From: a virus
Length of the DNA stretch: 24,445 bases
Strand: one strand, 5' to 3'
Virus record (IMG/VR): IMGVR_UViG_3300035698_006528
Location: 1-24,445 of that record
The position numbers and the translations under genes were made by a program. Positions 3 to 23,702 of the stretch are shown piece by piece. The stretch's first letter is position 1, and each line of letters begins with the position of its first letter. The notes below the pieces were generated by a model. It made no database searches, was not told where the DNA came from, and saw only the letters and a list, made by a program, of their open reading frames with translations.

Positions 3-250
3 GCTGCCAGCACTGCCGCTGATGTTGTTACCACTACCGCTGACGTTATTCTGACCGGTGCCGACGCTGCGAGCACGGCCGCTAATGTGATTACCACCAA
101 CGCTGATGTTGTGCTGACTAACGCTGATGCTGCCAGCACTGCTGCTGATGTACTGGTCACGAATGCTGACGTTGTACTGACCAATGCCGATGTTGTTACA
201 ACTGCCACCGCCGCTGCACAAGCAGCCACCAGCGCAGCCAATGCTGCCGC
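3..250 (+). repeat. 21-bp tandem repeat encoding fibre heptads
   Basis: Within the fibre gene, degenerate 21-bp units with core words such as gctgatgttgt and accaatgcc repeat about nine times. They encode heptads VVTTTAD, VILTGAD, AASTAAD, VLVTNAD, VVLTNAD. The array runs off the left edge. An Ala/Gln-rich run follows and leads into the globular part. Confidence 0.85.
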
Positions 251-3200
251 CGTAGTCAATTGGTCAATACCCGGGTTCACCACCACGCTTGCCATGACTG
301 ATGGCGTGGTTGCTCGTATGTACCCAGCATCAGAACCTGGTGTACCTGATGCATGGCGATTTAACAAAGGCGCAAGCTGGTACAACGAAACAAGAACAAC
401 GGGCGCTTATCTTGGCGAGTTTGCCAACGTCACTGCTGCGGCCGGTGCAACTGATGCTGCAATTGGCGATTACTATTACGACTCGGCCCTTGCGTTCTTT
501 TACGAACTTAGCAACATTGGTACACCCGCCAGCGATGCCACAGAGCGAGCGGGCAGCGCGGAGTTTCCTAGCGCCATTGAGTTCGTTGTCAAAGCCAACA
601 ACATTTTCATCTTGGATCTTAAAGATGGGTCACTTTGGAAACGAATAAGGGCTTCGGCTGGCCCCACATCAGCTTTGAGTTGGTGGAAAGGTAGCAGAGG
701 TGTTTCGAGTCTGGATTATAAAAACGGCGTGCTTGTATTCGGTAAGGATTCCGGCACTACCCCTCTGGGCCTCAATATCGTCAACTTCTTGGAAGATAAA
801 ATATACAAGATAGAATCAACTGAGGGAAACACTGGTGAGTTACCCATGTCTGCTATTGGTCAGGCTGTGGATATTTTACCTACTTCTCGTTATGAAACCA
901 TACTAGCTAACACAGTCAAAGCAGTCGCTATTGGCGATGCATCAAAACACTACGGCTATGACGAATGGGGAGTACCTAAACAGTTTATCGCTGTAGGTTG
1001 TGAAACTACACACGGCATTAGCGTTATACACCCGAACGGCAAGGTGTATGACATTACGGGCCAATCCAGCTTAATAAATGCTGTTGAATTTAATGCGTTC
1101 GGGGAGTTAGTTGCAACTGGCCTTTTCTCGTCATACCAAAGCACTTACAACGTGCCATTTAGAGATATTGATTACTCCGAACACGTGAGGGTTATGTACC
1201 CCACGGCCAGTATTTCTGCTGATGCTGCCTCGTTCCCGAGGACTTTAATTGTTGGAACACCCACGGCCACTGCACTGATGGGGCAGAAAGCGCTAGTTGC
1301 TGACGATACATTCCTGGCGGCAATTGATGAGGATGTATATGGTACGGGTAATGACGACGGTCGTGACAGTCCAGCCACATACGTTGGTTACGATTCCGCT
1401 TTAACAGAACACTTTGTTTCACCAATGGTTGATAGGCTGGTGACGGCTGCATTGGGTATGGAGGTAGGGACAACTGCTCTAGTTGAGGCGGAGTATACAA
1501 CAAACTCCACCTTCGATTCAGACACAACAGGGTGGACGGTTGTTAACGGAACACTGGCTAACTCACCCGCAGGATCTCTGCGACTTGAGAACACAAACAC
1601 CAACCCATCAACAGTTTATCAGGCGCTCGCTACAACAGTTCAAGGCAAGGACTATGTAGCGATTATTGAGCTTGAAAGCGTTGTTGGGCTAACTGCCGTT
1701 AGGGTTGATATATCCACAAGCAGCTCAACCGGCAACTCCTATAAACAGGTTACGTTGCCTGCGGTGGCGGGCTTTTACGCCATTCCATTCACTTCTCTGT
1801 ATAACTCAGAATATATAATTCTTGTTACCACGGGTGCCGAAAACGCAGGCGATTACATTCAAGTATCCGAAGCCTCTGTATGGGAAGCTACATCTGACCG
1901 CTCACAACTCAACACCAACCACGCCAAGATAAACGGCACGATTACCAGAGCAGCATATGATTCTGGTGATGCTGTACTTCATTCGGGTGCTGATGCGCTA
2001 TCGGCTAATGCTGGGGCTTATTGGGAAGAAGGCTATGATGGATTTGCCACAGATGGTGTAGTGCTCCACACGTTCATTAATTACACAGCCACCGAAGTTC
2101 GCAACCTGATAAGCAACCGGGCGTTAGACGGTAGCAGTAATCCGATAACCTGGTTGGCCGACAACACCGCAGGCGTTTCTATACATATCAATGGGTCGTC
2201 TATTCTTTCAATTACCAACGGGACTGGTGCTGCAACAGCTACCACAGCTATTTCAACCGCGCTGGCAACAGGACTGCATGAGGTCACAGTTATACAAGCC
2301 TCTGGTAGCACTTCAGGCTTCAGAGATTACTATGTATACGTGGATGGCGAGCTAAACCAAGTCACTGCCGAAGTGGTGTTTACTGCGCCGACAACTGCAA
2401 TCACTTACATCCACCCATCGAATACATCATGGGCGGAAGTGGGTGGCCTCGACAGAAAAGCCACCGCTGATTTCTACCGATGGAAGTACAAGAAAGAACG
2501 CAGGTTGTTCGACACTGGTGCCAAGGCTACATTGCAGGGAACCGGAAACGTTGTCGATATTGCAGTAGACGAAGCCAGGAAGACCTACACGGTCCTCCAG
2601 ACAGATCACTACACCACATTCGATATGGATGGCATTGTTACTGACGATGGTGCTGTATCGAATACCGGCGTGTCGATCAGTGTCCATGATGGCGATATCA
2701 CTATTCTGGATGGTGCCAATCTCACGCTGACGGTTGCTGCCAAGGATCTCGTTGAGCACCCATCCCAGCGAGTTAAAGAAAAGCGGATATTTGAGTATGA
2801 CAGCCTGGTTGAGGCCGACCCGCGTATCTTCGGCAAGACCGTCACAAACCCGCCCAACACAGGCGGCGATACCGTCGGTGGCACGCTGCTTGATTGGGAT
2901 GGCGCAGAATCGACCGATCCAACACTAGCCGACGCCTTGACCACGCTATTTGGTAACGAGGCAGGTAGCTATCTCGTTGGATTAACCGTCGCAAGCAGGA
3001 CAGCCGGTACGGTACAGATTGATATCTCAGGCACGTCAGGTGCGGCTAGGTCAACCAATGCGACCTTCACTGAAACGCTTGTATACGATCCTGCTGCGAG
3101 TGCGTCAGATGATCTTGTATTCAGTGATGCCGCCAGCGCATTTGATGGTCAGGTCAGCGATTACCGAATTCGGAAGGTGGGCATACCCCATTGGGTTGAA

Positions 3201-3368
3201 TCATCCTGGCGCATAGAGATGGTGTTGGAAGATGGGTCGAAAGTAAGACCAGATACACCTGACCTGGTACGGGATGGTGCGATCACTAGGCGCTTTGATG
3301 GGAAGTCTGGATGGCTCTCCACAGTCGATGCTTGGAATGTGCTCTCCATTGAGGGGGTACAGTCATGA
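3..3368 (+). CDS. Tail fibre / receptor-binding protein, 5' end missing
   Basis: The reading frame is open through the left edge of the window, so the gene starts further upstream; the GTG at 87 lies inside the repeat and is not the likely start. The visible part is about 1,121 codons. It opens with about nine heptads of the form xxxTxAD (for example VVLTNAD), a pattern common in trimeric phage fibres. Next come a beta-rich, propeller-like stretch (about 300-1400), a jelly-roll or carbohydrate-binding-like stretch (about 1490-1890), a LamG/concanavalin-like stretch (about 1990-2440), and another beta-rich region up to a C-terminal domain. The domain names are my reading of strand patterns, not a database match. 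The stop overlaps the next start by 4 nt. The likely role is binding the host surface at the tail tip or side. The middle is more AT-rich than the head genes, as is usual for exchanged adhesin modules. Confidence 0.8.
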   Translation, partial: AASTAADVVTTTADVILTGADAASTAANVITTNADVVLTNADAASTAADVLVTNADVVLTNADVVTTATAAAQAATSAANAAAVVNWSIPGFTTTLAMTDGVVARMYPASEPGVPDAWRFNKGASWYNETRTTGAYLGEFANVTAAAGATDAAIGDYYYDSALAFFYELSNIGTPASDATERAGSAEFPSAIEFVVKANNIFILDLKDGSLWKRIRASAGPTSALSWWKGSRGVSSLDYKNGVLVFGKDSGTTPLGLNIVNFLEDKIYKIESTEGNTGELPMSAIGQAVDILPTSRYETILANTVKAVAIGDASKHYGYDEWGVPKQFIAVGCETTHGISVIHPNGKVYDITGQSSLINAVEFNAFGELVATGLFSSYQSTYNVPFRDIDYSEHVRVMYPTASISADAASFPRTLIVGTPTATALMGQKALVADDTFLAAIDEDVYGTGNDDGRDSPATYVGYDSALTEHFVSPMVDRLVTAALGMEVGTTALVEAEYTTNSTFDSDTTGWTVVNGTLANSPAGSLRLENTNTNPSTVYQALATTVQGKDYVAIIELESVVGLTAVRVDISTSSSTGNSYKQVTLPAVAGFYAIPFTSLYNSEYIILVTTGAENAGDYIQVSEASVWEATSDRSQLNTNHAKINGTITRAAYDSGDAVLHSGADALSANAGAYWEEGYDGFATDGVVLHTFINYTATEVRNLISNRALDGSSNPITWLADNTAGVSIHINGSSILSITNGTGAATATTAISTALATGLHEVTVIQASGSTSGFRDYYVYVDGELNQVTAEVVFTAPTTAITYIHPSNTSWAEVGGLDRKATADFYRWKYKKERRLFDTGAKATLQGTGNVVDIAVDEARKTYTVLQTDHYTTFDMDGIVTDDGAVSNTGVSISVHDGDITILDGANLTLTVAAKDLVEHPSQRVKEKRIFEYDSLVEADPRIFGKTVTNPPNTGGDTVGGTLLDWDGAESTDPTLADALTTLFGNEAGSYLVGLTVASRTAGTVQIDISGTSGAARSTNATFTETLVYDPAASASDDLVFSDAASAFDGQVSDYRIRKVGIPHWVESSWRIEMVLEDGSKVRPDTPDLVRDGAITRRFDGKSGWLSTVDAWNVLSIEGVQS

Positions 3369-5878: not shown

Positions 5879-6430
5879 ATGGCAGCAAAGAAAAAGACAC
5901 CGAATTCGCAGAAGCCCGATTCCACTTGGCTTACACGCAGCCAGATGGTGCTGCACCTGCAGATATCAGGGACGGCCTTCGACAAATGGAAACTACAACA
6001 TGTAGGCAAAATCGGGCGCCATCGTTACTGGACGATCGCGCAGGTCATTAGTTACCGCGTTGCACGCGAACAACTCAAGTACCAGGCACGCCTTGACGAC
6101 ATGATTCAAGCAGGTAGCGACGGCGATGACCTCAACCCGGTGATTGAAAAGGCCAAGCTCGATCGGGAGAAGCGGATCGGGCAGGAACTGGCGAATGACG
6201 AGAAGATGGGCAACGTGTTCCCGACAGCTGCCGCGGGGTTTGTCTGGGCGAAGGCTGGCGCAGAGATGTCAGCAGTTCTTGAGTCGCTGCCGGCGAAACT
6301 GAAACGATCGATGCCAAAGATGACGGCAACCCAACTCAACGTAATCAAGAAGGAAATCGCAAAGGCATGCAACACAGCCGCCGACGTCGCCGATAAATTC
6401 GATGAATTCCTTGAGGAGTATTACACCTAG
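5879..6430 (+). CDS. Terminase small subunit, gpNu1-like
   Basis: This 183-aa protein probably recognises the packaging site and delivers the DNA to the large subunit. The N-terminus has a lysine-rich leader, then a winged-helix-like segment (residues about 17-50, TRSQMVLHLQISGTAFDKW) like that of Nu1-type small terminases, and a long charged helical region that would mediate assembly and contact with the large subunit. Length agrees with lambda gpNu1 (181 aa). The ATG at 5879 is the first start after an in-frame TGA at 5861. The end overlaps the large-subunit gene by 29 nt. The identification rests on the DNA-binding segment, length and position. Confidence 0.8.
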   Translation: MAAKKKTPNSQKPDSTWLTRSQMVLHLQISGTAFDKWKLQHVGKIGRHRYWTIAQVISYRVAREQLKYQARLDDMIQAGSDGDDLNPVIEKAKLDREKRIGQELANDEKMGNVFPTAAAGFVWAKAGAEMSAVLESLPAKLKRSMPKMTATQLNVIKKEIAKACNTAADVADKFDEFLEEYYT

Positions 6431-8336
6431 TCAGCGTGGCAACCTGAAGCGCGCCTGGGTCAAGGCGTTGAATTCAACGCTGCGAAAAAAAGAACCGTTG
6501 ACTGCTGTGGAGTGGGCAGACCAGAACTATTACTTGTCGCCGGAGTCAGCTTACGTGGAAGGCGACTGGGAAACGGTCCCCTTCCAGGTGGCCCCGCTCA
6601 ATTCGATGGGCAATGATGACATTAGAGCAGTGAACCTGGTCAAGTCCGCCCGGGTTGGTTACACCAAGATGATTCTGGCCGCGATCGCCTACTTCATCGA
6701 ACACAAGAAGCGCAACGGCATGCTGTTTCAGCCGACCGATGATGCTCGTGATGGATTCAGCAAGCAGCATGTAAACCCGATGATCCGAGACGTTAGGGTG
6801 ATGCGGGACATGTTCCCTCACCTCGACAAGAAGTCAAAGTTCAACACGATGGACTACAAGCTGTTTACGAACAGCCGCCAGCTGTTCTTGATGGGTGGTA
6901 AATCTGCAAAGAACTATCGAGAGAAGTCGGTTGATTTTGTCATCTACGACGAACTGTCGAGCTTTGATGCTGACATTGAACGAGAAGGTGACCCAGTATC
7001 CCTGGGTGATGTGCGGGTTGTAGGCGCCGCCTTCCCAAAATCGATTCGAGGATCCACGCCGAAGGAGGCGGGCACCTGCCAGATCTCAATGGCCGCCGGC
7101 GATTCGGATGAGCACTTCAGGCGATGGTACCCCTGCCCTCATTGCAATGAGCGGCAAATCCTCCGCTGGGGTGGTCCGGACGCGAGCTTCGGCATCAAGT
7201 ACGTCAACAATGATCCATCTACTGCAGCGTACTTGTGCGAGCACTGCGCTGCCCTGATCGATCAAGATGAAATGCCAGCGATGGACGAGAAAGCCGTCTG
7301 GATCTCTGACAACGGGATGTCGACAACCGACGGCATTACTTTTTACGACGCCAACGGCAAGGTGACGAACGCGCCTGCCTCGGTCACCTGGTACATGTGG
7401 GCAGGATTTTGCGCACCTGGTGGTGACAGCTGGTCTCAAATTGTTGACGCGTTCATCAAGGCAAAGAAAGACCCGATAAAACTGAAGTCATGGGTTAACA
7501 CAAAGCTTGGGGAAACGTGGGAAGAAGAATCAGACCAACTAGATTCACACCATCTGTATATGCGTAGGGAGCACTACCCCGAAGGGAAAGTCCCGAGAGA
7601 GTGCCTAGCATTACTGTTTGGTGGTGACACCCAGGATGACCGTGTCGAGATCAGTATCTGGGGTTTCGGGCTGGACGGTGAGTCCTGGTTGATCGAACAC
7701 GAGATCTTCTATGGCGACCCTGGCCGCAACGAGTTATGGAACCAGGTTGGTCAGTATCTACAGACCTCAACCTGGGAACACGAATCAGGCGCGACCCTCC
7801 GGATCCGCGGCGGTGGCCTGGACACGGGTGGCCACTACACGACAGAGGCCTACAAGTTTTGCAAGAAACACCAGGCGCGTAATTTCCTGGCGCTGAAGGG
7901 TAGTAACCAGCCCACCGCGCCATTCACCAGCCGGCCAAGCAGAAACAACGCCCAACGAGTCCGGTTGTTTTCGATTGGTACCGCCGAAGCCAAGGACCTC
8001 ATCTATGGGTCTTTGAAGTTGGCGGAGCCGGGGCCTGGTTATGTGCACTTTCCAGTGAGCGCCGACGAGGAGTACTTCGAGCAGCTCACCGGCGAAAAGA
8101 AGGTGACCACGTTTAAAGATGGCAGGCCGGTCAAGAAATACAAAGCCATCCGCCCACGGGTGGAGGCGCTGGATTGCTATGTCTACGCCCGTGCAGCATT
8201 TGAAATATTGAAGGTGCCACTTCGAGCTCTCGCAACTGAGCTCGCTGGTAAGCCGCCACCGGCAACGAAGAAAAAGAAACAGCAATCATCCATCCGCCGT
8301 GAGCGTGGCGACGGTTGGATGGACCGATATCGATAG
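6402..8336 (+). CDS. Terminase large subunit, lambda gpA family
   Basis: This 644-aa ATPase-nuclease motor packages phage DNA into the prohead. Visible motifs are a Walker A-like KSARVGYT at residues 81-88 (nearly the same as in lambda gpA), Walker B VIYDEL at about 180-185 with D183/E184, and GSTP at 218-220 as the coupling motif. A zinc-knuckle pair lies at C245-x2-C248 and C279-x2-C282. The nuclease centre begins at GGDTQDDR (407-414), with LDTGGHYT downstream. Length matches lambda gpA (641 aa). The C-terminus is basic (KKKKQQ), near the region that contacts the portal in lambda. The start at 6402 lies inside the end of the small-subunit gene and has a weak ribosome site, so coupled translation is likely. 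Confidence 0.95.
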   Translation: MNSLRSITPSQRGNLKRAWVKALNSTLRKKEPLTAVEWADQNYYLSPESAYVEGDWETVPFQVAPLNSMGNDDIRAVNLVKSARVGYTKMILAAIAYFIEHKKRNGMLFQPTDDARDGFSKQHVNPMIRDVRVMRDMFPHLDKKSKFNTMDYKLFTNSRQLFLMGGKSAKNYREKSVDFVIYDELSSFDADIEREGDPVSLGDVRVVGAAFPKSIRGSTPKEAGTCQISMAAGDSDEHFRRWYPCPHCNERQILRWGGPDASFGIKYVNNDPSTAAYLCEHCAALIDQDEMPAMDEKAVWISDNGMSTTDGITFYDANGKVTNAPASVTWYMWAGFCAPGGDSWSQIVDAFIKAKKDPIKLKSWVNTKLGETWEEESDQLDSHHLYMRREHYPEGKVPRECLALLFGGDTQDDRVEISIWGFGLDGESWLIEHEIFYGDPGRNELWNQVGQYLQTSTWEHESGATLRIRGGGLDTGGHYTTEAYKFCKKHQARNFLALKGSNQPTAPFTSRPSRNNAQRVRLFSIGTAEAKDLIYGSLKLAEPGPGYVHFPVSADEEYFEQLTGEKKVTTFKDGRPVKKYKAIRPRVEALDCYVYARAAFEILKVPLRALATELAGKPPPATKKKKQQSSIRRERGDGWMDRYR

Positions 8337-8590: not shown

Positions 8591-10047
8591 TGTCGTGGTA
8601 CGACCGCTTACTTGCCGGCATCGCCCCCGACTACGCAGTTCGAAGAATTTCCGCAAAAAATGTTGTATCGGCCTACGAGTCTGCAAAAACCTCACGAACG
8701 CACAAGCCGAAACGCGAGGACCGTGGGCCTAATACACCGGTAACCGAGTCAGCAGTGTCTTTACGACAGCAGGGCCGCTACCTCGAACAAAACAACGACA
8801 TCGCAAAGGGTGCGCTCGATATCCTGGTCGCACGCACGGTTGGCATGGGGATTCTCCCAGAGTTCATGGTCGAAGACACGAATGGTGATCTTCATGAAGA
8901 AGTGAACGAGCAGCTGGCCAGCCTTTACGACGAATGGTGTCGGCGCCCTGAAGTCACCTGGACGCTGGACGAACCATCAGCTCAGCGAATGTCAGCTCGC
9001 ACTTACTTTCGGGATGGCGAGTATCTGATGCAGCACCTCCTGGGAAACACCAGGGGATTGCAACATGGCACGAAGGTGCCGTACAGCTACGAACTCATCG
9101 AGAGCGACATGCTCCCCATGCACTACCACAAGCAGAAGCCGCTAGTGGTCTCTGGTGTGGAAATGAACGGATGGGGACGCCCAACAGCGTACCACCTGCT
9201 CAAATCAGATCCGAACGACGTAAGCAAATTCAGCAGGTTTAACGAAGAAACCCGCGTTATACCTGCCAGTAAAATTTCACACCTGGCGATCCGCAATCGA
9301 TTCCGCCAGGTCAGAGGCACATCAGTTTTCGCGGTGGTGATCAAGCGCCTGCAGGATATCAACGAGATCGATGAGACGGAACGCGTTGCTGCACGGATGG
9401 CTGCGGCGATCGCGCTTTATATCAAGAAGGGTGACCCTACGATCTACTCTCCCCCGGACTCCGAAGCGGGTGATGAAGATCCCCGGGAGATTGACATCTA
9501 CCCCGGCATGGTCATTGACGATCTCCTGCCTGGTGAGGATGTTGGGTCCGTGATATCCAACCGCCCGAACAACCAATTGATCGCTTTCAAGGGTGATCAG
9601 ATGAGACACGCGGCAGCGGGTATCGGTGTTTCCGGCAGCGCCCTTTCGAAGAACTACAACGGTACCTACTCCGCCCAGCGCCAGGAACTCGTTGAACAGC
9701 ACGACCACTACGGAATCCTCTGGCAGGATTTCATTGGACGCAGCGAGCGACCGAAGCTGGAAAACTTCATCAACATGGCGATCGCTTCCCGGGTCATCCG
9801 GATCCCGGACAACGTAAAGCAAGACACTTTGCTCAACATGAACTTCAGCCGCCCGGCCATGCCCTGGATCCAACCGAAACAGGAAGCGGAAGGCTGGATG
9901 ACATTGATCGAAGGCAAGCTGGAAAGCAGAAGCGCAGTCATCAGATCACGTGGCAAGAACCCGAGACAGGTAGATAAACAAATTGAACGCGAGGAGCGTA
10001 AAAATGCCCAAGACACCAAAGACCCCGAAGACACCCCCGAAGAGTAA
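8590..10047 (+). CDS. Portal protein, lambda family
   Basis: This 485-aa protein forms the dodecameric ring at the head vertex through which DNA enters and leaves. It has the architecture of the lambda-type portal family: an N-terminal leader, the stem region with NNDIAKGALDILVARTVGMG (about 67-86), and a core with YFRDGEYLMQHL and YELIESDMLP. The wing region has RQVRGTSVFAVVIKRLQDI. A C-terminal crown segment includes FSRPAMPWIQPKQEAEGW and the acidic/basic tail. Length is close to lambda gpB (533 aa). The last 44 nt overlap the protease-capsid gene. Confidence 0.93.
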   Translation: MSWYDRLLAGIAPDYAVRRISAKNVVSAYESAKTSRTHKPKREDRGPNTPVTESAVSLRQQGRYLEQNNDIAKGALDILVARTVGMGILPEFMVEDTNGDLHEEVNEQLASLYDEWCRRPEVTWTLDEPSAQRMSARTYFRDGEYLMQHLLGNTRGLQHGTKVPYSYELIESDMLPMHYHKQKPLVVSGVEMNGWGRPTAYHLLKSDPNDVSKFSRFNEETRVIPASKISHLAIRNRFRQVRGTSVFAVVIKRLQDINEIDETERVAARMAAAIALYIKKGDPTIYSPPDSEAGDEDPREIDIYPGMVIDDLLPGEDVGSVISNRPNNQLIAFKGDQMRHAAAGIGVSGSALSKNYNGTYSAQRQELVEQHDHYGILWQDFIGRSERPKLENFINMAIASRVIRIPDNVKQDTLLNMNFSRPAMPWIQPKQEAEGWMTLIEGKLESRSAVIRSRGKNPRQVDKQIEREERKNAQDTKDPEDTPEE

Positions 10048-12109
10048 AGCACCCTGGTATTCCATGGTGTCGAACGCTGTTGACGGAGCCAACGTCGTCA
10101 ATCTGCACATTTTTGGCGAGATCGGCTGGGACATCTCCGCGCAAGAATTCATCACCGAGCTCGAAGCACTTGGTGACGTTGACCAGGTAGACGTTGAGAT
10201 CGGTTCAGTCGGCGGAAACGTGTGGGACGGCCTGGCGATTTACAACGCCCTGCTTAACCACAAGGCCAAGGTGTCAGTGCTTGTCACATCCCTGGCCGCA
10301 TCAATGGCTTCAGTCATCGCATTGGCGGCTGATGAAGGTGAGCTCCGCATGATGGAGCAGTCGATGATGATGATCCACAACCCATCTACGGGGGCATGGG
10401 GAGATCAAAACGATCACCAGAAAGCCGCCAAGATGCTCGAAAAGGTTCGAGAGGCGATGGTCGGCGCTTACATGCGCCGATACAACGGATCCCAGGAAGA
10501 CCTCATCGCGATGTTGGACGAGGAAACCTGGCTGACTGCTACCGATTGTGTTGAGAACGGCCTCGCTGATGCTGTTGTCACCCAGGAACTAGACCTGGCT
10601 GCCTGCCTCGCCGAACTAGACCTCTCCACCCTGGAGAACGTACCCGAAGAATTTCTCGCCATCATCAACGGGCCAAAACCCAACGATGAGGGTGAGGACG
10701 GCGCTGCACTCGCAGCGTCCAGAGCGCAATTGGTGTCTGACATCATCGTGCGAAACCAACAGTCGGCAATAGCCGCCGACAAACCAGAGGAAGATCCCAT
10801 GGATCCTAAAGAAATAGTGGCGGCTGAAAAAGCCGCACGAGAAGCCGAGGCCAAGCGCCAACGCGATATCCGTGCCGCATTCTCGAAGTTTGAGTTTACT
10901 GGCTCGGTAGAACTACTCACCGCATGCATTGATGATTTTGAGTGCAGCGTCGAGATGGCAAACACCAAGCTGCTTGCAGAATTGGGTAAAGACAGCGTGT
11001 CACTCGGTGGGCCTGCAGTCGTCCTCGAAGACGCTCGCGACAAGTTCAGGGCGGGTGTTGAAGAAGCAATCGAAATGCGTATGAACAGGAAGCCGGTGGA
11101 TCACACCAACGAGTTCCTGTCCTGCTCACTCCTGGAGATGTCAAAGCGATCTGCTGAAGTGCGTGGTGTTAGCATCGCAGGCAAGGACAAGTTTCAGATT
11201 GTCGCAGTCGCACTGCAACCAGGCTCGGATTTCCCCGGGATCCTGGAGAACATTGCCACGAAAGAAGTGCTGCGCGGTTACTCCGAACAGGCTGAGGTTT
11301 ACACAACCCTGGCCAGGGTGGGTAGTCTGCCGGACTTTAAGGCAGCGAGTCGCACCGGCCTCGGTCACGCGCCTTCTTTGGTTGCTAATGCCGAGATGCA
11401 GGAAGTGGAAACCATCGAACTGGCTGATCGCAAGCAAAGCATCCAGCTGGCCACCTATGCAGGTAAGGCCGGGCTTAGCCGAGTCGCCATCATCAACGAC
11501 GATCTGAATGAGTTCGGGCGCATGCTTTCCAGGCTAGGTGCTGGTGCGAAGCGGACTGTCGGTGATCGGTTTGCTGCAGTGTTTACGACCGCTGCAGGTC
11601 TTGGCCAGACACTGGATGAGGACTCAAAAGCAATCTTCCACGCTGATCACTCGAACACCGGCACAGGTGGTGTACCGACATCAGCCACGTTCACAGAGCT
11701 CCGCGTGAAGATGGCTACACAGTCTGACGTAGGTGGTAACGCAAACCTCAACATTCAACCCAGGTTTGTCTACTGCCCGGTTGCGCTGGATGGTCCTTGC
11801 AGGGTGGTGAATACGTCTCAGGACGAAGTCACCTCTGCCAAGACTGCTCGAACTAAAAACATTGAGATGGGCCGATGGGAGATTCTCTCAGACGCACGTC
11901 TCGATGCTGCAAGTGCGTTGAAGTACTACGCGCTAGCGGATCCCAACCAGACCGACACTGTCGAAGTGGCGTTCCTGGATGGCCGAGACGAGCCGATGAT
12001 CGAGCGCGTGGAGTCCTACAACGTGCTTGGTGTTGAGTGGGTTGTCTGGATCGACTGTGTCGCCCAGGCGCTTGACTTCCGAACCATGGCATACAACGCA
12101 GGCTCTTAA
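10004..12109 (+). CDS. ClpP-like prohead protease fused to major capsid protein
   Basis: I chose the ATG at 10004, which has GAGGAG about 8 nt upstream; a TTG at 9983 is in frame but unlikely. The product is 701 aa. A Pro/Lys/Thr leader (PKT repeats) is followed by a ClpP-fold protease: IGSVGGNVWDGLAIYNAL (66-83), AASMAS with nucleophile Ser100, MMIHNPS with His125, and the WLTA...ENGLADAV end at about 177-191. A linker (about 205-275) and a charged helical scaffold-like stretch (about 275-315) come next, then the coat domain, about 370-701. That coat domain shares the Mu gpT-like signature: DFPGILENIATKEVLRGY, LATYAGKAGLSRVAIINDDL, FHADHSN. Fusions of this type are known in phages. The protease presumably releases itself and removes the scaffold during head maturation. 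The capsid protein would be made only by cleavage, unless an internal start is used. Confidence 0.9.
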   Translation: MPKTPKTPKTPPKSKAPWYSMVSNAVDGANVVNLHIFGEIGWDISAQEFITELEALGDVDQVDVEIGSVGGNVWDGLAIYNALLNHKAKVSVLVTSLAASMASVIALAADEGELRMMEQSMMMIHNPSTGAWGDQNDHQKAAKMLEKVREAMVGAYMRRYNGSQEDLIAMLDEETWLTATDCVENGLADAVVTQELDLAACLAELDLSTLENVPEEFLAIINGPKPNDEGEDGAALAASRAQLVSDIIVRNQQSAIAADKPEEDPMDPKEIVAAEKAAREAEAKRQRDIRAAFSKFEFTGSVELLTACIDDFECSVEMANTKLLAELGKDSVSLGGPAVVLEDARDKFRAGVEEAIEMRMNRKPVDHTNEFLSCSLLEMSKRSAEVRGVSIAGKDKFQIVAVALQPGSDFPGILENIATKEVLRGYSEQAEVYTTLARVGSLPDFKAASRTGLGHAPSLVANAEMQEVETIELADRKQSIQLATYAGKAGLSRVAIINDDLNEFGRMLSRLGAGAKRTVGDRFAAVFTTAAGLGQTLDEDSKAIFHADHSNTGTGGVPTSATFTELRVKMATQSDVGGNANLNIQPRFVYCPVALDGPCRVVNTSQDEVTSAKTARTKNIEMGRWEILSDARLDAASALKYYALADPNQTDTVEVAFLDGRDEPMIERVESYNVLGVEWVVWIDCVAQALDFRTMAYNAGS

Positions 12110-20600: not shown

Positions 20601-21932
20601 ACCAGCAACGATCGGAACAATGCCGCGATCACGACGCCTTCAGTCTCTGGCGCCGGCACAGCGATTGATCATGTGATTAACACGGACGGAAGTGCCGACA
20701 TCTCCTTCGAATGGTCCTGGGCAGGTGATGAGGGCATCATCGATGGATTCGTCGTCTACCACTACACAGCCGCGGCTGGCACGTCCTATAACGTCGGGAC
20801 CACGCCTGCAGCAGAGACCGCTTATGTCATCGCTGCCGCTGAGCGGGCATTTATCTTCCGCGGAGTCGCGGCAGATCAACACCACACCTTCGGCATCCAG
20901 GCCTTCAGGCGGGTTGATAACGATATTGATACTGATGGCTTCATCGGATCAACCGTTGTTCAGCCGGCGCTTGGTGCGGAAGATCCGTACCAGCCAGCAA
21001 CATCAGTAGCGTTTAACGGCAATATCCTCGGAACTATCGACAGCGTCCCGGTCGCCACTGTCACTGGTGGCGCGGCTGCCGGATCGAAAGGGATCGAGCT
21101 GAACATCAACGTAAACAACTTCGCCGGGACTGCTCAAAGCGGGCGGTTCTATCTCAATGGCTTTGATGCTGCTGGCGTGCGATCGGACGTAGCAGGAACT
21201 GTAAACATAGAGGGCGAGCCAAACCATGTGATGCTTGGCGCGGTGAACGAGGTGCAGGTTACGGCTGTCGGAGTCGTCAACAAGAAAGGCTGGCTTGCTT
21301 ATGATTCAGCGGATACCACTCCCTTTACTTTAACCATCGGCAGGAACATCGCGTTTGTGTTTCAGGACAGAGATAGCAATTGGTTCTATGCCGATGGCAC
21401 GACCACGCCGATTTCGTTTACGCCAACTGCTGCCATGTACGCCATCGGCACGATGCAGACTCACGCGACAACAGGGCTGGGGGCTATCCCCAACGCTAGT
21501 GTCTTTAAAGACGCGATACCGCTGCTGGAGGTTCCATATGTCACTGTTGAGATAGTGGCTGACGTTTTGAATTCAGGAACTCGAACGGCAGTCGGTGACG
21601 GTACTACGCTCAACTGGACCTGGGACAACGTGAACCAGTCTCCAGTGTCAACAACTCAATCTGTAACGGTCCAGTTCCAAGATGACCAAGGAACGGTAAA
21701 GTCATCCCAGACAATCACATTTACTTTTGACGGGTCAGTCGACAATAATTCGGTGATTGCAAGCAATACTGCTTCGCCAGTAACGACCGAATCATCAACC
21801 GTCACCTTGAACCATAGCGGCGGCGGAGTTAACGAGGGCTACGAAACTGTGAAGATAGTTCACGACAATACAGGCGTCCAGGCTTTCGTGACCGCAACGG
21901 CCATCTCTTACGGCGGCTACGGAGGAAAATAA
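17622..21932 (+). CDS. Tail tip / host-specificity protein with fibronectin-like modules
   Basis: This large 1,436-aa protein probably forms the tail tip (gpJ-like) and central fibre. The N-terminal third (about 1-520) has hub-type segments: IIEIDFTDEILRLTG, EVIRYTGKTSSTFTTLTRGVLGT, LEIQWNYN and VFEVGDTVRVRLPIQD. Next is a beta-rich repetitive stretch (about 590-630), then a glycine-rich patch (AAGGAGGDGGAG, GGSFGGSG, about 716-753). Two FN3-like modules follow, at about 876-969 (DMIISWADPSPIDYYDYVQV) and 1005-1108 (ADISFEWSWAGDEGIIDGFV). The C-terminus is beta-rich and ends in YGGYGGK. The start overlaps the preceding stop (ATGA). The tip, glycine-rich and FN3 parts are typical of receptor-contacting tail proteins. 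Confidence 0.87.
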   Translation: MRVDALPFATANQAESKKPLYIIEIDFTDEILRLTGESGTPVPADGNDVEHGTFKVVSSTSQRIDPNIGASTIGGITFESIDLSDAITDKFRAKLTNDAIGLLGKTVTFKFGYDALAYTEFETVQTQQIRNVRLDGKKYIIACEDIQRAAKKQIFDEVKTTLAANITDTETTTMNVFDTTDFTMVQHGTSYSDAPSATVGYLEIKQGDKREVIRYTGKTSSTFTTLTRGVLGTRAQDFSFDSGGSDNGITVRQYVYLEMPVLKLAYALLTGDLIGQASQTLPDEWHLNIDPAWVDQSQFTAHEDLYDSTDDTAGFIARIEGVPRSDGKSFIEKELMLLAGTFMPVQADGSLGLKRMADVQPRAGYVGALDASNVIKYTPLEHAMDEVFNKLEIQWNYNTNRKEFSRINVLEDAASQATHGVTKTKILKFRALYGSIHSASILDTAFNVLRDRYAGPPLRISMTCLPSTNVFEVGDTVRVRLPIQDFTDTGTLDRTFEVQQRKINWLTGLVTFDLFSSSQRATLKTPSATSPLADAFYSSGLTAGNEINATNFPGNVASSAGITTVSGDITLNGNADMTNNAAIYWCTEPLTVNAGVTISVDRNVQLRVKGHITMNGDIDGIAAAVETGITGYCGAMVEAQWGLEIDGGGPVNDYYKSTNRSMVTPLQRSPLYGLIPFLNVGVDATGIVAGIPTDCRGISGATGGEVYQHDLLATQAAGGAGGDGGAGLVIVSRGGSFGGSGQIDLSGGAGIKGSTHVSTGKTMHAGCGSPGGPGSCHWVVDGQASTIPTLSLNFIGKMGAVDLDGSTPDLSDWVKHPAPGDASQETSSAHGLNPARDENGPQDSTQVDISQSVQRVQVVSGFVEPNADVEASAPAPTSVTLTARANLPDMIISWADPSPIDYYDYVQVWRHTSNDFASASLLVDIRANTFTDTTAVAGTNYYYWVRSKKGVDYSSEVATTPTNATSAAITAASTSTVGGVSAATVAAAATNFNTSNDRNNAAITTPSVSGAGTAIDHVINTDGSADISFEWSWAGDEGIIDGFVVYHYTAAAGTSYNVGTTPAAETAYVIAAAERAFIFRGVAADQHHTFGIQAFRRVDNDIDTDGFIGSTVVQPALGAEDPYQPATSVAFNGNILGTIDSVPVATVTGGAAAGSKGIELNINVNNFAGTAQSGRFYLNGFDAAGVRSDVAGTVNIEGEPNHVMLGAVNEVQVTAVGVVNKKGWLAYDSADTTPFTLTIGRNIAFVFQDRDSNWFYADGTTTPISFTPTAAMYAIGTMQTHATTGLGAIPNASVFKDAIPLLEVPYVTVEIVADVLNSGTRTAVGDGTTLNWTWDNVNQSPVSTTQSVTVQFQDDQGTVKSSQTITFTFDGSVDNNSVIASNTASPVTTESSTVTLNHSGGGVNEGYETVKIVHDNTGVQAFVTATAISYGGYGGK

Positions 21933-22609
21933 TGGCAACAGCAATCACCAGATCGATCCGAATCACGATGAAGGCCGAAGGCGATAGGCAGGGCTGGTAC
22001 GTCCGAGCTATGAATATCCGGGATGTATTTGACGTGTTCGAGACCATGGAGGACTGGCCTAAAGATCATGTCGGGGTGTACACGATTCAGAGAGCGAACT
22101 ACGTGGTCTCTGGTGCAGTGAATGACATGAAGAAGGCTGTATACCCGCTCCGCAAGGCTGACCGCTTCAATATGTCGTGGGTGCTGTGTAACCCGGATGG
22201 TGAGTTCGTCGGCTTGTTCAGGCAGAAGATCAAGGAAGAGAAAGACTGTCACATGAGTCAGATCGCGTTCAAGCCGGAGTTTCGAGGGCAAGGACTCACG
22301 CGGCTTGTTGTGTATTTCCAGTCCTACATCGCGTGGTATCTGTACCGGGCCGACAAGTGGTCGTTCGAGGTGATGGATCAGAATCCCGCCCTGATGACAA
22401 AGGTTGACCAGTTCCTCGACAAGGAAAAAGACAAGAAGGGGCATCGCACCGGCTCCACTGGCGCGAACGTCGAGCGGTTCGAGATGACGAGGCAGCAACA
22501 CGAAGCCACTTATGAGAAAGAGTCATACGGCAAGGACGTAGCGGACGGTCTGGACATCAACAAGATCGGGAAAAAAGGCTACGGGCATATGTTTCTCGTC
22601 ACTGAGTGA
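21932..22609 (+). CDS. GNAT-family acetyltransferase-like protein, tail-linked
   Basis: This 225-aa protein has a GNAT core: a strand with WVLCNPDGEFVGLF (residues 83-96) is followed by IAFKPEFRGQGLTRLVVYF (111-129). The R118-G119-Q120-G121 motif in it binds acetyl-CoA pyrophosphate in GNAT enzymes. A basic/charged insert (KEKDKKGHRTGS) and a C-terminal extension follow. There is no signal peptide. The start shares one base with the stop of the tip gene (TAATG), so it is translated with the tail genes. It may acetylate a virion protein or a host target; the substrate cannot be told from the sequence. Confidence 0.75.
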   Translation: MATAITRSIRITMKAEGDRQGWYVRAMNIRDVFDVFETMEDWPKDHVGVYTIQRANYVVSGAVNDMKKAVYPLRKADRFNMSWVLCNPDGEFVGLFRQKIKEEKDCHMSQIAFKPEFRGQGLTRLVVYFQSYIAWYLYRADKWSFEVMDQNPALMTKVDQFLDKEKDKKGHRTGSTGANVERFEMTRQQHEATYEKESYGKDVADGLDINKIGKKGYGHMFLVTE

Positions 22610-22742
22610 TATCAGCCCAAACCGCCGTTTTAACCGACATGATTTCGCCACAATATCTCACACGGACTTCAGCTGTTGGCTGGGATCAAATGCGGGATAC
22701 TTGGCGTCTAATGTCAATCCGCTCGTAGTAGGCAGTGAGCAT
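22610..22742 (+). other. Intergenic gap after the late operon
   Basis: The structural genes end here. I see no coding region, no convincing promoter and no clear terminator hairpin with a T run. Confidence 0.4.
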
Positions 22743-22773
22743 TATGATCAAGGACGACGATCAGAAAGACCAG

Positions 22774-22792
22774 CCAGGTGAGATCTACCTGG
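22774..22792 (+). repeat. Inverted repeat (6-bp stem, 7-nt loop)
   Basis: CCAGGT and ACCTGG form a perfect stem around gagatct, inside the possible truncated ORF about 40 bp upstream of the tRNA half. The downstream tRNA-like anticodon arm has a similar CAGG ... CCTGGGT layout. Confidence 0.5.
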
Positions 22793-22833
22793 GTATCAAT
22801 GATGATGGTGCGCGATCTTGTCTGAATCTCCCT

Positions 22834-22883
22834 ACAGGCTTCGAACCTGGGTGTCGGGAGTTCGAATCTCTCTGGGCGGACCA
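22834..22883 (+). other. tRNA 3'-half remnant, candidate attachment (att) core
   Basis: From the right: CCA at 22881-22883, discriminator A at 22880, a 7-nt acceptor strand TGGGCGG, and a canonical T arm with GGGAG, the loop within GTTCGAATC, and CTCTC. A 5-nt variable loop (GTGTC) precedes it. An anticodon-like hairpin lies at 22834-22850 with 4 of 5 pairs and loop CTTCGAA. If genuine, the anticodon would be UCG. No 5' acceptor strand (CCGCCCA) or D arm exists upstream, so this is not a full tRNA. Phages often carry such a 3' half because they integrate into tRNA genes. Confidence 0.6.
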
Positions 22884-22916
22884 TTTACAAAGGCCTGCAG
22901 CCAATCAACTTTTCCC

Positions 22917-22949
22917 ATCTGCCTCGTATTCTACGATCTGCCTCGTATT
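22917..22949 (+). repeat. 14-bp direct repeat beside the att candidate
   Basis: ATCTGCCTCGTATT occurs at 22917-22930 and again at 22936-22949 (19-bp period). The second copy overlaps the stop codon of the - strand Lar-like second half. Close to a putative att core, it could be a protein-binding arm site or just a small duplication. Confidence 0.7.
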
Positions 22950-23281
22950 ATTCCGAAACCCTCACTTTTTTTGGGGTGATATTCTGGTGCTCTTTGGCAA
23001 TGTCGACCAAGTAATCAACACCTTCACGTATCATATCTTCAGCATCCTTGACTGATTCAATGGCCTTTTCTTCGCAAATTTGAAACCCTGAGGTATAAGC
23101 ACGGGCCGCCACCAACAGAATATCTTTAAGGTGGTCCTTGTCCTCTATCCAGCGATCTGAGAAAAAATCTATCTCATGGTCCTCTGCCTCACTCTTGTTT
23201 CTACCTATTAAAAAACAATACTGGAAATATTCTGGTGTATCGTCTTCATGGTACTGTTCGTAAAATGTCTCCTTTGCAAAA
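22948..23281 (-). pseudogene. Out-of-frame C-terminal part of the Lar-like gene
   Basis: On the - strand this frame is open for about 110 codons and reads F-A-K-E-T-F-Y-E-Q-Y on to a TAA at 22950-22948. It has no ATG, GTG or TTG start near its beginning, but it has a convincing protein composition: DDTPEYFQYCFLIG, DRWIEDKDHLKDILLVAARAY, and helices to the end. It begins exactly where the upstream ORF shifts. Adding one T to the short T tract at 23278-23281 (AAAA on the + strand) fuses both into a single 251-codon ORF. It could be a broken gene, a sequencing error at the homopolymer, or a programmed shift. Confidence 0.65.
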
Positions 23282-23702
23282 TATCGCAGATGGGACAGGC
23301 ATGATATTCACCTTCCACATGGGGGCATGTGCAATCAGTTACGTCCCATGAGAAACCCCAATCCCAACCCCAATAGTTGCATTCAGGGTAATGCCTTCCG
23401 GCATCAATGCGGCGGTTGTTGGCATCATCCATGAGGGAGCGTTTGTTCCATTCCTCAATCGCATATCGCTTGGCGAACTCAACCAAGTCTGGTCGATACA
23501 TATTCGTCTTAGAATCGTAAGCGCCTTCGCTGTACCTATCCTCCCTAGATATAATGTCAACAATCTGGAAGTCCACGGAGGCGTAACAACACGATGGCCC
23601 CTCGTAACAACTGCCCCCCTCGTATCCTTGGTGTTCTGGTTCACCCCCACAAAATGGGCAGGGCTTCAGCACATCAGACATAGTATCTGTAGTGTCACTC
23701 AT
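23208..23702 (-). CDS. Lar-like zinc protein (restriction-alleviation type), frameshifted
   Basis: The 0-frame product is 164 aa. Its N-terminus has the typical Lar family pattern: PCPFCGGEPE (C15-x2-C18), a second Cys group (C32, C38, C39), and the closing AIEEWNKRS (81-89). Lar in the Rac prophage reduces restriction by EcoKI; small Lar-like proteins are common in phage early regions. Beyond that lies an unusual second Cys cluster (C108, C124, C126, C136, C139, with CPIC). The last 23 residues (after CPICDI) are probably not native, as the neighbouring frame continues the gene. The start overlaps the stop of the membrane-protein gene (ATGAGTGA). Real function is inferred from the family only. 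Confidence 0.7.
   Translation of the reverse strand: MSDTTDTMSDVLKPCPFCGGEPEHQGYEGGSCYEGPSCCYASVDFQIVDIISREDRYSEGAYDSKTNMYRPDLVEFAKRYAIEEWNKRSLMDDANNRRIDAGRHYPECNYWGWDWGFSWDVTDCTCPHVEGEYHACPICDILQRRHFTNSTMKTIHQNISSIVF

Follow-up and report, generated by a model that had tools for sequence, protein, structure and literature searches.

A tRNA-Arg(UCG) 3' part as the predicted attachment core of an uncultured lambda-like phage

The phage record and its tRNA-derived element

The DNA analyzed in this study, hereafter the window, is a whole IMG/VR virus record of 24,445 nt from a metagenome assembly. According to Pfam, it encodes Nu1, a gpA terminase, a lambda-family portal and a fusion of a ClpP-like protease with a capsid protein, and its terminase matched the phrog_15 terminase (1.3e-234). 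With a gpA-type terminase, a lambda-family portal and Nu1, the window belongs to a lambda-like tailed phage. The protease and the capsid protein are fused in a single 708-aa frame (9983-12109). The first long protein (87-3368) opens with tandem repeats (TNADVVLTNADVV), and the sister contig L014 repeats the first bases of the window (L014:1-500); the window may therefore start where assembly broke off within repeats. L014 and a further sister contig, L007, come from other metagenomes; both match parts of the window at 100% identity and end short of the element described below.

The last late gene on the plus strand ends at 22609, and the first larger gene on the minus strand is the Lar-like gene (Table 1). 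The 3' part of a tRNA lies between them, as the first-pass annotation had placed it. The Lar-like gene marks the right side of this element as phage DNA, not host DNA. The record ends about 1.6 kb (1.56 kb) past the element; this 1.56 kb contains no integrase, and with the sequence stopping there, that of the phage itself was not found. Searches for a rightward extension with the exact right-end pattern and the Lar-like protein yielded nothing usable. L006, a relative found via the GNAT-like protein, was rejected, as its adjoining region reads as a different coding region and not as an att site.

Table 1. Features of the window at and around the predicted attachment site
Feature	Coordinates	Strand	Evidence or remark
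Terminase large subunit, lambda gpA type; probe for relatives	6402..8336	+	Pfam GpA_nuclease, 1.1e-82; 72% identical in G009
Last late gene, GNAT-like acetyltransferase; adjoins the predicted attP	21932..22609	+	Pfam Acetyltransf_1, E 0.00044
Putative P arm, intergenic, from last late gene to core	22610..22834	.	Corresponds in position to the G009 P arm; P' motif not convincingly found
Predicted attP core, tRNA-Arg(UCG) 3' part, tRNA positions 28-76 including CCA	22835..22883	+	49-nt identity to complete tRNA-Arg(TCG) in L004 and L005; window without a complete tRNA
Anticodon arm CAGG-CTTCGAA-CCTG; probable crossover segment with core-type integrase sites	22835..22849	+	Palindrome around a 7-bp loop
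First putative P' arm-type integrase site, ATCTGCCTCGTATT	22917..22930	+	Exact direct repeat, spacing 19, 33 nt after CCA; 0/5000 shuffles with an equally long repeat
Second putative P' arm-type integrase site, ATCTGCCTCGTATT	22936..22949	+	Offset and spacing as in G009, G306 and L005, whose sequences differ
Lar-like restriction alleviation gene, first larger gene past the P' arm	23208..23702	-	phrog_599 Lar-like, 2.5e-6; Pfam Lar_restr_allev, 4.1e-4, below its cut-off

The element contains the anticodon TCG (22841-22843), a T stem and loop (GGGAG-TTCGAAT-CTCTC, 22856-22872), the acceptor 3' strand TGGGCGG (22873-22879), A73 (22880) and CCA (22881-22883). The T arm, acceptor 3' strand, CCA and anticodon-like arm that had been read there are therefore all present, and the UCG anticodon and A73 were named correctly. 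The original limits, 22834-22883, hold from 22835 onwards: homology to the host tRNA starts at 22835, within the anticodon stem at tRNA position 28, and A22834 mismatches C27 of the host gene, being the same base as in the attP of the relative G009. ARAGORN found no tRNA gene in the whole window, and the Rfam tRNA model scored only 15 bits at the element, below its gathering score of 29; thus the 5' half is absent, as had been noted, and the element lacks the complete cloverleaf of a functional phage-encoded tRNA. Two open reading frames cross it, 22735-23055 (+) and 22714-22884 (-), and both were judged spurious because they read through tRNA sequence. The element is a clean truncation rather than a decayed gene, and its identity to the bacterial genes described below is far beyond chance.

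Bacterial tRNA genes and other elements at the same target

When about 85,000 species genomes were scanned for exact copies of the final 24 nt of the element, two places came up, one in an OM182-clade metagenome-assembled genome (MAG; L004) and one in a Halioglobus MAG (L005), gammaproteobacterial drafts of different genera. In each case the match lies in a complete tRNA-Arg(TCG) gene, so that bacterial tRNA genes sharing this 3' half do exist. The identity, which includes CCA, covers 49 nt in OM182 (22835-22883) and 52 nt in Halioglobus (22835-22886). The host suggested by this tRNA identity, the only ground for naming it, may be a former host. Within the family to which the OM182 MAG belongs, the window terminase had one distant match only (36%), so a lysogen of a near relative is absent there. 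An exact scan of viral contigs with the 28-nt tRNA end found no further record, and neither a lysogen nor an attL of the window phage itself was found. Downstream of the OM182 tRNA-Arg there is a degenerate partial copy of the tRNA core (L004:860-905, GAGTGTCGGGAAGC...ACGAATCTCTCTGG), which is perhaps a remnant of an earlier insertion.

The strongest support for an attP core comes from the relative G009 (IMGVR_UViG_3300037780_000056, 39,852 nt), in which 14 window genes are collinear. The tRNA 3' end is present twice in G009, on the same strand. One copy is inside a complete tRNA-Arg(TCG). This gene is bordered 5' by 1.1 kb of other DNA and on its other side by the right arm of the phage, so that this end of the record consists of flanking DNA, the complete tRNA-Arg(UCG) with its core, the P' arm and the integrase. 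The other copy is at the opposite end, with the left arm of the phage; it follows the late region and breaks off at the very base where the core of the window does. The two copies are identical for exactly 127 nt, from the first base common to host and phage up to the contig end. This overlap would be expected from an assembly graph, with an inferred k of 127, that holds both the attL of a lysogen and the attP of the excised phage. The G009 integrase (367 aa; phrog_1 integrase, 4.2e-27) lies about 0.9 kb inside from the tRNA and was undetected by the Pfam integrase model. G009 resembles the window in its collinear genes, core breakpoint and P' geometry, but differs in its arm motif, CGGTAGCTATT, and in its core, which ends GTGCCA; its host tRNA therefore has a different acceptor end. 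The flank of G009 had no match among the fetched tRNA loci. ARAGORN reported a tRNA-Met(CAT) within this phage (L098:19454-19528). Upstream of its tRNA-Arg, on the reverse strand of L091 (about 1790-1570), there are two tandem copies of a unit whose start resembles the 5' end of this tRNA (TGCGCCCATAGCTC...); earlier events may have left them as scars.

In genome G306, a complete tRNA-Arg(TCG) adjoins the gene for an integrase of 366 aa, which belongs to the same family as the G009 integrase (38% identity); a truncated tRNA copy follows 20 kb further. The core common to both junctions is 53 nt, from AGG of the anticodon stem to 5 nt past CCA. This island shares with the window the tRNA gene, the core start within one base and the P' geometry, but it carries a different gene set between its junctions and its core ends GGGCCA. 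Among the relatives, the same core was thus seen as attL and the truncated attP form in G009, and as attL and attR in G306. In genome G114, a truncated tRNA-Arg core beginning CAGG (L144:1049-1097) lies beside an open frame that, on its sequence alone, reads as a P4-type integrase; this suggests that the gene is also targeted by integrases of a second type. Fragments of integrases are found close to the tRNA at the Halioglobus locus and in genome G304. Thus tRNA-Arg(UCG) is a repeated insertion target.

Just past the core, the window carries ATCTGCCTCGTATT as a pair with 19-bp spacing, the first of which begins at base 34 past CCA. G009 has CGGTAGCTATT twice from the 36th base (spacing 19), G306 has ATTGTCTA twice from the 35th (spacing 19), and L005 has ATCTACCCCATAGA twice from the 35th (spacing 20). 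The G306 repeat is unremarkable alone (300/5000 shuffles); it is the agreement of position and spacing across elements that is remarkable. Repeats differing in sequence and alike in geometry are as expected for integrase arm-type sites. The left arms of G009 and G306 have copies at matching positions, about -125 (+) and -64 (-). A search of the left arm of the window gave weak, chance-like matches only.

Integration model and alternative explanations

Direct observation covers the block of identity, its place where the late operon ends, the conserved geometry of the arm repeats and the integration of G009 and of an unrelated island at tRNA-Arg(UCG); we infer the identity of the integrase, the exact crossover point and the host. 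Very probably, the element serves a lambda-like temperate phage as its attP core for integration into the tRNA-Arg(UCG) gene of the host. The first-pass annotation had proposed an attachment core, to be given up if no bacterial tRNA gene shared the 3' half or if the region was at an integration boundary in no related prophage. Neither is the case, since exact matches were found in OM182 and Halioglobus and the element stands at such a boundary in the collinear G009, and also in the unrelated G306 island; the proposal is supported.

According to this model, a tyrosine-recombinase integrase encoded past the end of the window would bind the repeats at 22917-22949 and half sites in the anticodon stem, and strands would be exchanged between attP and the chromosomal tRNA gene in the 7-bp anticodon loop CTTCGAA. 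Since the whole stretch from the anticodon stem to CCA comes with the phage, the left junction would again hold a complete and functional tRNA gene, and the right junction would be marked by the displaced 3' part of the host gene. The crossover is probably in the anticodon loop, a position that follows from known tRNA-targeting integrases (PMC8371274, PMC4383910). The homology starts at the equivalent of 22835 in both the window and G009, and within one base of it in G306. The 7-bp loop and its palindromic stem resemble the overlap and core sites of lambda (review, PMC8371274), and anticodon-centred attP sites are one main class in tRNA genes (island database, PMC4383910). CAGG-CTTCGAA-CCTG at the edge of the homology fits this class.

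Some phages carry whole tRNA-Arg genes of similar sequence (L002, L003), so one may ask whether the element is a pseudogene, a decayed phage tRNA gene now missing its 5' half and unconnected with integration. This is highly improbable: the part that is kept shows no decay at any base and breaks off sharply at the anticodon stem, the G009 phage and the G306 island share the truncation point (within one base) at integration junctions, and arm-type repeats of conserved geometry come next. A truncated tRNA 3' part beside late genes would also look like an attR, as in G306, if the record were an integrated prophage with host DNA to the right. We regard this, too, as very unlikely. The right side has arm-type repeats; in G009 and G306 such repeats lie on that flank of attL which belongs to the phage, and the host flank of the G306 attR lacks them; the Lar-like phage gene lies further right; and the right side matches the tRNA flanks of L004 and L005 for no more than 3 nt. 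The position of the repeats indicates that the window is most likely unintegrated phage DNA.

Identical tRNA ends can produce misjoins in a metagenome assembly, and neither sister contig spans the element, so phage and host DNA might have been joined artificially at a common tRNA stretch. Even then the phage would need to carry the common stretch itself, and the P' arm geometry agrees with that of other elements; the probability of a chimera is minimal.

Integrase lineage and biological meaning

Lambda uses a non-tRNA attB and a 15-bp core. The window resembles the attP (POP') of lambda in that its core follows the last of the late genes, precedes a region transcribed leftward and is accompanied by putative tandem arm-type sites, but its core is about 49 nt of tRNA and its left-arm sites are unrecognised. 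Williams, in 2002, reportedly described an anticodon-loop class of attP sites of tRNA-targeting tyrosine integrases. As in this class (subsite A in Islander, PMC4383910), the tRNA 3' part is on the phage, the gene would be restored and the homology runs from beside the anticodon loop; the mechanism is not new, and the difference is the target, here a gammaproteobacterial tRNA-Arg(UCG) such as those of OM182 and Halioglobus. The predicted attP of the window is a new member of a well-known kind of insertion site.

The integrases of G009 (L099:16676-17779, +) and G306 (L141:668-1768, -), the two that are 38% identical, read TGMDKQ and TGLDKQ, with Asp aligned to the first catalytic Arg of tyrosine recombinases. 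Four aligned integrase relatives have TG[LV]RQ and keep the Arg; a tRNA-Asn gene is present at four of the relatives' loci. It is conceivable, but rather doubtful, that the unseen integrase of the window phage belongs to a tRNA-Arg(UCG)-targeting lineage in which this normally essential Arg is replaced by Asp. If such Asp-bearing enzymes are active, they would be tyrosine recombinases working without Arg I.

In conclusion, a partial uncultured viral contig gains a predicted temperate lifestyle and a predicted chromosomal target, tRNA-Arg UCG. This narrows the candidate hosts to Gammaproteobacteria with a tRNA-Arg(UCG) ending TGGGCGGACCA. The arm-site geometry is conserved across otherwise different elements at tRNA-Arg(UCG).
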